DNA from: an uncultured Bacteroidota bacterium | Lineage (GTDB): Bacteria > Bacteroidota > Bacteroidia > Chitinophagales > LD1 | Reading direction: 5' to 3' | DNA length: 37,156 bases | Assembly: GCA_903917755.1 (NCBI GenBank) | Contig: CAIXBT010000148.1 | Span: forward strand, 1-37,156 | Shown: positions 4,884 through 19,623 of the stretch, piece after piece | Layout: every line of letters starts with the position of its first letter | Numbering within the stretch: the stretch's first letter is position 1 | The notes under the pieces: model-generated | Database searches by the model: none | What the model saw: the letters and a program-made list of their open reading frames with translations, nothing else | What the model was told of the DNA's origin: nothing | Position numbers and translations under genes: made by a program

Positions 4884-5330
4884 ATGTTTATTCGAATTAT
4901 TAAGGGTAATAAACCTGTTGGGTCTTCTATTATCAATAAAAAGTCAACTTGGGTTTTGTGTATTCTAATAGGCATTGGAATTTCCATACCCATAACTATT
5001 GGAGTTCTTCGTCAATGCAAAATCTATACAAAGGGAAGTTTAGTTAAAGTACTGGTGGTAAATGTACCAGATAATAGTAGAGGTAATTCTAACGGAAGAA
5101 TGAATTTTGAATTCAATGGTAAACCATATGACATTAGTGTTCGTGGTCCTGTCAGTAAAGTATATCATGTTGGAGACACAATATTACTTAGATATCTTAA
5201 TGAGGATGAAGGACTTTTTATGCTCCCAAATAAAAATCCTATAATCGATGGCTTACTATATTTTATAGCAATGTCAATAGCAATTGCGGGCTGTGTTTAC
5301 TATTTAATAAATACACCTGTTGTAAAATAG
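4884..5330 (+). CDS. Hypothetical protein with two TM segments (DUF3592-like)
   Basis: 148 aa ORF; TM segment, short beta-rich region, second TM segment. Confidence 0.55.
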   Translation: MFIRIIKGNKPVGSSIINKKSTWVLCILIGIGISIPITIGVLRQCKIYTKGSLVKVLVVNVPDNSRGNSNGRMNFEFNGKPYDISVRGPVSKVYHVGDTILLRYLNEDEGLFMLPNKNPIIDGLLYFIAMSIAIAGCVYYLINTPVVK

Positions 5331-17426: not shown

Positions 17427-18560
17427 TTAACCTTCGATCAGATGTGGTACGAATCTGCTTGTATTAGAAGTGATAGGTGAATCTGACTCTCTGATCCCCA
17501 TTCCTGCAGGCTCCTGACCGATGATCCAGCTACCCAGCACCGCATATTTGCCCTGATTTTGTGGCAGCGTGAATAGTGTCTGAAATATGGTTTTTGTATT
17601 ACCATACTCACCACGTGTCTCTTCTGTCTTCTGCCCGTTTTCATACATGATGATGTTATTTCCCTCCCGGCTCCAGATCGGTTTCTCTACATATGAGCCG
17701 TAAAAAGGTTTATCAAAAGATGCTTCGAGCAATAGTTCGTGATTAGGAAATAAGCGCCACAATATTGGCAGGATGGCCTTGCAGGAGAGGAGCATTTTCC
17801 ATGCCGGCTCTATCCATAGCGACCTGTTCTTATCAAGCGGGATGTTTTTGCCGAAATCTTCTGCCAGCATCATTTCCCAGGGATATAATTTGAAAATATT
17901 TTTCATGGCTATACCTTCATTATCCACCCATACATTCAGCGTGGTGTCCCATCCGATCTCATCTACGAATATGAAACAGGCCTCAATGCCCGCCTGAATG
18001 GCGCAGTCTCGCATATATTCAGTGGTGGTGAGGTCTTCGAGAGATCGTTTTACACAGGCGAAATACAGCGGCTCGCGGTAAAGATAATCTTTCAGAAAGG
18101 CCCAGTAGGCTACTAATTTTTCGTGTATGGAGTTGAACTGGTCTTTGCTCCGGTCGAAGTCCTGCAGCCAGTACCACTGCACCACAGCTGCTTCAAACAG
18201 CGAGGTAGGAGTGTCGGCATTGAATTCCAGCATCTTGATCTGTCCGTCTTTGTAGCATAGATCAAACCTTCCGTATATGGCCGGAAGGTCTTCATTCCAG
18301 CTGTTTTCGATCTCGGGGATAATGAACTCCGGTATCTGAAATTGAGCATATAGTTTTTTGTCGATCACATACTGTACAGCCTGTAGGCACATCTGCCATA
18401 GTGTGGCGGTGGCGGTTTCGATACGGTCTATCTCATTCATGCGAAATGAATAATAAACTGTCTCGTCCCAGTAGGGAACATTAGTAGTGTGAAATCCGAA
18501 GCCGATCTTTTCGACGGCTTGCTGCCAGTTATTTCTGGGTGGAGTGGTGTATCTTTCCAT
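17427..18560 (-). CDS. Glutathionylspermidine synthase-like ATP-grasp ligase (YgiC/YjfC type)
   Basis: YGRFDLCYKDGQIKMLEFNADTPTSLFEAAVVQWYW, KPFYGSYVEKPIWSREGNNI, GKYAVLGSWIIGQEPAGMGIRESDSPITSNTSRFVPHLI; synthetase domain only, no amidase domain. Confidence 0.9.
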   Translation of the reverse strand: MERYTTPPRNNWQQAVEKIGFGFHTTNVPYWDETVYYSFRMNEIDRIETATATLWQMCLQAVQYVIDKKLYAQFQIPEFIIPEIENSWNEDLPAIYGRFDLCYKDGQIKMLEFNADTPTSLFEAAVVQWYWLQDFDRSKDQFNSIHEKLVAYWAFLKDYLYREPLYFACVKRSLEDLTTTEYMRDCAIQAGIEACFIFVDEIGWDTTLNVWVDNEGIAMKNIFKLYPWEMMLAEDFGKNIPLDKNRSLWIEPAWKMLLSCKAILPILWRLFPNHELLLEASFDKPFYGSYVEKPIWSREGNNIIMYENGQKTEETRGEYGNTKTIFQTLFTLPQNQGKYAVLGSWIIGQEPAGMGIRESDSPITSNTSRFVPHLIEG

Positions 18561-18567
18561 AGATGTG

Positions 18568-18894
18568 TTATGAAGAAACAGTCAGATGGCCCGATCCGTA
18601 GCCTCCCCGGATCACATTGCTTTTGCCGTAATTGACGCCGTAATTGCTATGTTCGGCTATGGCATCGGAATAATATCCGTAATGCGTATACATGCCGTAG
18701 TAATTGTCTCCGATGGGGCGAAAGGCTCTGTACCACATATGTGTGTGATAGGTGGGGCTGAATTCTGCCGTAGTGTCGGATCTCATATATACATGCCGGT
18801 CTCCTGCTGTCCATTCGTTTTCGGGGTCGTGCTTATTGCATGAGGCGAGGGCAGCAGTGATCAAAACCAGTGATATAGCTCTTGATTTTTTCAT
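18568..18894 (-). CDS. Small lipoprotein with C-terminal RGGYG motif
   Basis: MKKSRAISLVLITAALASC lipobox; C-terminus SNVIRGGYGSGHLTVSS; 7 nt upstream of the ATP-grasp gene. Confidence 0.75.
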   Translation of the reverse strand: MKKSRAISLVLITAALASCNKHDPENEWTAGDRHVYMRSDTTAEFSPTYHTHMWYRAFRPIGDNYYGMYTHYGYYSDAIAEHSNYGVNYGKSNVIRGGYGSGHLTVSS

Positions 18895-18898
18895 GGGG

Positions 18899-19225
18899 TC
18901 ATTTTACTGTGATATATATTTCATATTCACGTGGAGAAAGCACTTGTTTATTGCTGCCGTCCTGATCTGTGGCATCATTCATGCCGCTGCCAAGAGAAGG
19001 CAAAGTATCATGCGTCACAAATGTTTTGACCATCGAGCGGTTCTTCCATACTTTGTGAGTAGTGGTCAGCATGTCGTAAGTCTCATTGAGATGAGAGACG
19101 GCGACTTCAGTCTCTATTGAACCATCTTTGTCTACCATTTTTACTTTGTCTTCGGGTACTGTATTAGAGTCACATCCGCTCAGCAGAAGCAAAGCTGCCA
19201 GGATAAATGAAACAGTCATTCTCAT
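18899..19225 (-). CDS. Small lipoprotein of unknown function in the ATP-grasp operon
   Basis: MRMTVSFILAALLLLSGC lipobox; 4 nt upstream of the next gene. Confidence 0.7.
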   Translation of the reverse strand: MRMTVSFILAALLLLSGCDSNTVPEDKVKMVDKDGSIETEVAVSHLNETYDMLTTTHKVWKNRSMVKTFVTHDTLPSLGSGMNDATDQDGSNKQVLSPREYEIYITVK

Positions 19226-19265
19226 GAGATATATTTTATGTAATTGGTATTTCTTTGGCCGTAGG

Positions 19266-19295
19266 CAAAGTATACATTTTTATGCTTTTGACAAA
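19266..19295 (-). promoter_or_regulatory. Putative Bacteroidetes promoter internal to the lipoprotein/ATP-grasp operon
   Basis: Minus strand TTTG-N17-TATACTTTG, close to the TTTG/TAnnTTTG consensus (one extra spacer base in the -7 box), upstream of the 19225 start. Confidence 0.45.
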
Positions 19296-19308
19296 CTGGT
19301 CACTCAGA

Positions 19309-19623
19309 TCATGAAGAAAAACTGTGTGTCAAACCATGAACCCCGAAACCTCCGCGTTCTATGGTTGTACTATGTTTATGGTTAGGGCCGGTATAAAAAC
19401 TGCTAGGTACCTGAAAGTATAAAAATGACCCATTTCTGTCGTATTGGTTGCCAGGTGTAAAAGACGTACTGTCTGATAGAAATGCTTTATTCCAATGCTC
19501 CGGCATACTGGTATCGGGTGGGATATAACTGTTGTACTGGGTTTCATAGGAAGGAAGCGGCGAACGACAGGATGCCAAAGCCGAGGTGATCAGAACAAGT
19601 GACAGCAACTTTGATTTTTTCAT
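19309..19623 (-). CDS. Small lipoprotein with C-terminal RGGFG motif, paralog of 18568..18894
   Basis: MKKSKLLSLVLITSALASC; C-terminus TTIERGGFGVHGLTHSFSS. Confidence 0.75.
   Translation of the reverse strand: MKKSKLLSLVLITSALASCRSPLPSYETQYNSYIPPDTSMPEHWNKAFLSDSTSFTPGNQYDRNGSFLYFQVPSSFYTGPNHKHSTTIERGGFGVHGLTHSFSS

Follow-up and report, generated by a model that had tools for sequence, protein, structure and literature searches.

The window analyzed here, a stretch of 37,156 nucleotides from an uncultured Bacteroidota bacterium, encodes a GspS-like ATP-grasp ligase in the company of small lipoproteins that share a C-terminal RGG[FY]G tail, which raises the question of what this tail is to the enzyme. 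We consider it probable that the operon encodes a peptide-polyamine ligase together with its own exported substrates, and that a polyamine is joined in amide linkage to the C-terminal carboxylate of these tails prior to export. Direct observation covers the pairing of the genes, the conservation of the tail, and the family and active-site pattern of the enzyme.

Operon layout and the shared tail

Lipoprotein A (19623-19309, 104 aa) is followed in transcription order on the minus strand by a tail-less lipoprotein (19225-18899, 108 aa), lipoprotein B (18894-18568, 108 aa) and the ligase (18560-17427, 377 aa). The intergenic gaps are 83, 4 and 7 nt, and this spacing makes it likely that the four genes form one operon. 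The preliminary description had located the ligase and the two tail-bearing lipoproteins correctly and on the right strand, and its account of A and B as having a common signal peptide (MKKS..LSLVLIT.ALASC) and a tail at each C-terminus, with divergent sequence in between, is borne out. It also placed both lipoproteins directly upstream of the ligase, which is true of B, across the 7-nt gap, but not of A, since the tail-less gene intervenes. Lipoprotein B, which has orthologues in most related loci, is the core tail protein, and A (35% identity to B) is an extra tail-bearing paralogue.

The lipobox Cys is residue 19 in both tail-bearing proteins. Lipoprotein B ends in IRGGYGSGHLTVSS and lipoprotein A in ERGGFGVHGLTHSFSS, within the longer C-terminal stretches ...NVIRGGYGSGHLTVSS and ...TIERGGFGVHGLTHSFSS, respectively, and the motif lies 13 and 15 residues from the C-terminus. 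Placed by motif position, and in B also by alignment of the conserved tail, the tails are RGGYGSGHLTVSS in B (18571-18609, minus strand) and RGGFGVHGLTHSFSS in A (19312-19356, minus strand). A Pfam search with lipoprotein B returned no family above its cut-off.

The tail-less lipoprotein, which ends in REYEIYITVK, had been overlooked in the preliminary description. It is a conserved operon member in Bacteroidota: a related gene is found upstream of the tail gene, between it and the upstream DNA, in 43 homologous Bacteroidota loci. The group ends in [KR][DE]YEI[FY]ITVK across these loci and matches no Pfam family.

When the entire 4.05-Mb genome to which the window belongs is searched at the nucleotide level for [RS]GG[FY]G, the pattern turns up 12 times, compared with 16 times for a control pattern. 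Only the two occurrences in the window form the C-terminus of small lipoproteins, and one further site is a Gly-rich SGGFG tail on a larger protein. Scanning of the whole genome revealed no other small lipoprotein with an RGG[FY]G-type tail. By this genome-wide count, the tail common to lipoproteins A and B is not due to chance.

Pairing of the tail with the ligase

Enrichment of RGG[FY]G beside GspS-like genes in other genomes, which the preliminary description proposed as a check, is overwhelming and supports its suggestion that the ligase recognizes or modifies the tail. Among the 76 homologous genome loci with sequence upstream of the ligase, 67 have, directly upstream of it, a gene whose product ends in a strict RGG[FYW]G tail, and 73 do when close variants are counted, although the loci are related by descent and these counts overstate their independence. 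The background is a single strict tail in 2,185 other ORFs of the same DNA, and this one belongs to an operon of the same type, as its second tail protein. In most loci where the exact motif is missing there is a variant, such as RAGFG, RTGGFG, RGLLG or KGGFG. A sample of 297 Bacteroidota genomes, selected independently of the tail, yielded 14 ligase loci above 250 bits, and 13 of these have a tail-like neighbour (e.g., GRSGYGSGRSTRSYGG). The 14 loci include a second subfamily with quite different lipoprotein bodies.

Proteobacterial coverage of the pairing comprises E. coli, plasmids and phages. In E. coli, the pairs are YgiB-YgiC and YjfM-YjfC, in each of which the lipoprotein is of the DUF1190 type; the C-terminal motif of YgiB mentioned in the preliminary description is present in the E. 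coli sequence, and YjfM has a tail as well, ending in ...VSRGGYGRSSSARGHWGG. In RefSeq, the E. coli homologues that have such a neighbour bear the product name peptide-spermidine ligase. Homologues accompanied by a tail are also encoded on alphaproteobacterial, gammaproteobacterial and actinobacterial plasmids, namely those of Sphingomonas, Vibrio, Methylobacterium, Asticcacaulis, Pseudomonas, Paracoccus and Curtobacterium. The DUF1190 (PF06693) model matches neither tail lipoprotein of the window. When profiles of window-type lipoproteins and DUF1190 proteins were compared, only the signal peptide aligned, and we do not posit a common ancestry of the two kinds of body.

In viruses, the tail gene is present in about 62 of 65 distinct loci, upstream of the ligase in 52 and downstream in 10. 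Phages OC, Motura, Acj61 and LAh_8 have the tail, and Phosso and avDM4 have variants. The pairing crosses phyla, phages and bodies that have no detectable similarity except in the signal peptide. Phages that encode a YgiC-type ligase with their own RGGFG-tail lipoprotein (L122, L124, L126, L128, L135-L214) include contigs of 300-530 kb. Four viral tails (L144, L146, L148 and L158) end in Glu, as GGE or GE, instead of in Gly, Ser or Ala; they are reminiscent of Pup, which ends in Gly-Gly-Glu.

Several further observations concern the neighbourhood of the ligase. The signal peptides of the tail lipoproteins begin with M[KR]xS in 62 of 93 cases, compared with 8 of 151 other nearby lipoproteins; such conservation of a signal peptide is unusual, and it may itself be recognized by something. 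One operon (L036) encodes a second exported protein with an RGGWG tail (5028-5276), apparently non-lipidated, so that two tail proteins per ligase occur elsewhere too. More remote GspS-like ligases (44-75 bits; L099, L100, L102, L105 and L106) adjoin proteins of ∼460 aa with Gly/Ser/Arg-rich C-terminal tails, e.g., GRSGGFSGG, the one in L099 having no Pfam match, which suggests a further version of the ligase-tail pairing. Finally, a contig binned as Candidatus Uhrbacteria (L072) has the pair with a ligase of 49% identity, possibly through a binning error.

The distance from the motif to the C-terminus varies among families, from about 8 to 35 residues, as would be expected if the motif were a separate recognition site. 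The tail might then be a docking element only, with the ligase modifying another site of the lipoprotein or converting a tail that is cleaved later into a free peptide-polyamine, as in ribosomal peptide natural products. We regard this as unlikely, however, given the strong constraint that keeps the last residue of the protein small: it is Gly, Ser or Ala in 95% of the tail lipoproteins, compared with 14% of other nearby lipoproteins. Moreover, the parent enzymes have a C-terminal carboxylate as their site of action, and no conserved protease or exporter is found beside the pair in the loci that were read. Glutathione, the substrate of the parent enzyme, has Gly at its end.

The tail could also be a sorting or assembly signal for another envelope factor, its linkage to the ligase reflecting a shared pathway and not the relationship of enzyme and substrate. 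Every tail protein seen is exported or looks exported, and DUF350 membrane proteins are frequent in the same clusters, both of which fit such a role. The constant partner, however, is the ligase, including in phages that often have no DUF350 protein, and tblastn of the Bacteroidota loci found no DUF350 homologue. On this evidence we hold a sorting signal to be quite improbable and continue with amidation of the tail.

The ligase and its likely amine

The window ligase matches PF03738 (GSP_synth) with 471 bits, against a cut-off of 29.3, over model positions 1-371 of 371. Its top PDB sequence matches are YgiC (7uk8) and YjfC (7uk6), with which it shares 41-42% identity over the full length, and both are matched in fold by the model of a close homologue (in L017), with TM scores of 0.89-0.91 (normalized by target). 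AlphaFold2 was also run with ligase and tail on one chain by reading in-frame neighbours through their stops, once with the tail upstream (L017) and once with it downstream and its C-terminus free (L140); alignment rows from E. coli, plasmids and phages were left out. The ligase is confidently predicted in both models, while the tail has a pLDDT of about 25-30 and is not predicted to dock. In the former, the C-terminus of the tail is fused to the linker, and in the latter, most lipoprotein rows of the alignment are misplaced, so that neither model is a proper test of docking.

Residue roles were taken from a study of trypanothione synthetase (PMC3581523) and mapped by alignment onto 18 proteins. 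All 18, E. coli Gss and the phage homologues among them, keep the catalytic Arg (R98), the Mg ligands (D100, E112 and N114), the ATP lysines (K261 and K293) and, at the polyamine site, E123, E175 and R357. The residues with which Gss contacts the γ-glutamyl moiety (S335, S337, E392, T441, A443 and T446), by contrast, are replaced together in YgiC-type members, including those of the window and phages, with few exceptions; they become T, T, D, L, P and a mostly bulky residue, respectively, and the window ligase has S335T, S337T, E392D, T441L, A443P and T446M. Since the catalytic and polyamine residues are kept while the γ-glutamyl pocket is replaced, the window ligase should, to judge from its residues, activate a carboxylate and couple a polyamine to a target other than glutathione.

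This bears on the reading that the lipoproteins are incidental neighbours of a true glutathionylspermidine synthetase, as the Pfam family name and a weak resemblance to the synthetase half of Gss might indicate. The rebuilt pocket argues against it, as does the absence of the Gss-type CHAP amidase domain from the window ligase, whose 377 aa make up the synthetase part only. With the NCBIfam Gss equivalog the window ligase scores 162 bits, below the cut-off of 882. No tail gene is found near E. coli gss, and YgiC is reported to be without glutathionylspermidine synthetase activity (PMC12506659). Glutathione synthetase was not found in the window genome, which is 96.7% complete and fragmented, and the doubt that the preliminary description voiced about glutathione as the substrate thus appears well founded. 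A true synthetase is, in our estimation, scarcely credible. Two other readings of the tail were dropped: an RNA-binding RGG box does not fit exported proteins, and sorting of the rhombosortase or PEP type does not fit a tail that has no transmembrane segment.

A further question is which polyamine a ligase that amidates the tail would use. In the window genome, AdoMet decarboxylase, spermidine synthase and carboxynorspermidine decarboxylase were not found. Taken together with six ligase-bearing Bacteroidota relatives, it gave no match to AdoMet decarboxylase and none to carboxynorspermidine decarboxylase above the cut-off, and the relatives had only weak spermidine synthase matches. A deoxyhypusine-synthase-like gene, on the other hand, is present in all seven genomes, as a partial match in that of the window. 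Bacterial deoxyhypusine synthase homologues (SpeY) make homospermidine (PMC9992855). A literature search on the polyamines of Chitinophagaceae gave no result. The lack of detectable spermidine synthesis, the deoxyhypusine-synthase-like gene, the chemistry of SpeY and the hss gene of phage Motura together make homospermidine, rather than spermidine, the likeliest co-substrate in the window organism.

Proposed modification and comparison with known systems

YgiC and YjfC are peptide-spermidine ligases according to the citation of Pederick et al. 2023 in PMC12568646. Taken together with the gene pairing, these reports make amidation of the tail with a polyamine the simplest explanation, and we infer that the enzyme acts physiologically on the lipoprotein tail. 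In the proposed mechanism, the cytoplasmic ATP-grasp enzyme would recognize a C-terminal tail consisting of [RK]-x-G-[FYW]-G followed by a short Ser/Gly-rich stretch that ends in Ser, Gly or Ala. It would phosphorylate the terminal carboxylate of the tail with ATP, and the activated carboxylate would then be joined to a primary amine of the polyamine, here most likely homospermidine. The ligase has no signal peptide although the tail proteins are exported, so the modification would have to precede export and lipidation of the pre-lipoprotein. The outcome would be an envelope-anchored protein with a positively charged polyamine in place of its carboxylate end, which may serve for cationic anchoring or for protection from C-terminal proteolysis.

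Whether exported proteins are C-terminally amidated with polyamines by a general system is, in our judgment, an even call. Such a system would combine a portable [RK]xG[FYW]G tail with a cognate ligase in many phyla and (jumbo) phages, on bodies with little or no detectable similarity, and would use an amine matched to the host, homospermidine in these Bacteroidota. The class of enzyme and its activity in E. coli are already known. As far as we have checked, what is new is the recognition that a portable tail accompanies the ligase almost everywhere, together with the putative non-DUF1190 substrates of Bacteroidota, the phage pairs and the prediction of homospermidine. If correct, the proposal adds a modification of exported proteins whose target is predictable from a short tail and which entails an exact mass shift. 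YgiB, YjfM and many unrelated-looking envelope lipoproteins that have long been without an assigned function would gain a testable biochemical role, and annotations as "glutathionylspermidine synthase" in glutathione-free bacteria and phages would become predictions of C-terminal polyaminylation of proteins. It also raises the question of why phages bring their own pair of ligase and lipoprotein.

The window ligase shares the ATP-grasp fold, the catalytic Arg, the Mg and ATP ligands and the polyamine-site glutamates with E. coli Gss and trypanothione synthetase. The window system differs from these in having no amidase domain, a replaced γ-glutamyl pocket and a tail-bearing partner, in a host in which glutathione synthesis was not found. 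With the E. coli pairs it shares the active-site pattern and an RGG[FY]G-tail lipoprotein directly upstream of the ligase, and with DUF1190 lipoproteins the lipobox, the RGG[FY]G motif at the C-terminus and the location beside a GspS-like gene. Unlike the E. coli pairs, it has two tail lipoproteins, neither with a detectable DUF1190 body, and a third lipoprotein, no PspA/DUF350 cluster, and a host that probably makes homospermidine and not spermidine. Finally, Achromobacter phage Motura has a gss homologue beside hss, for which glutathionylhomospermidine was proposed as the product (PMC9992855). Its ligase is of the YgiC type, like that of the window, and is located near a homospermidine synthase. 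The hypothetical gene that lies between hss and gss (L124:3114-3494) is found here to encode a tail lipoprotein, ending in IVRGGFGSTGSSFSAGG.
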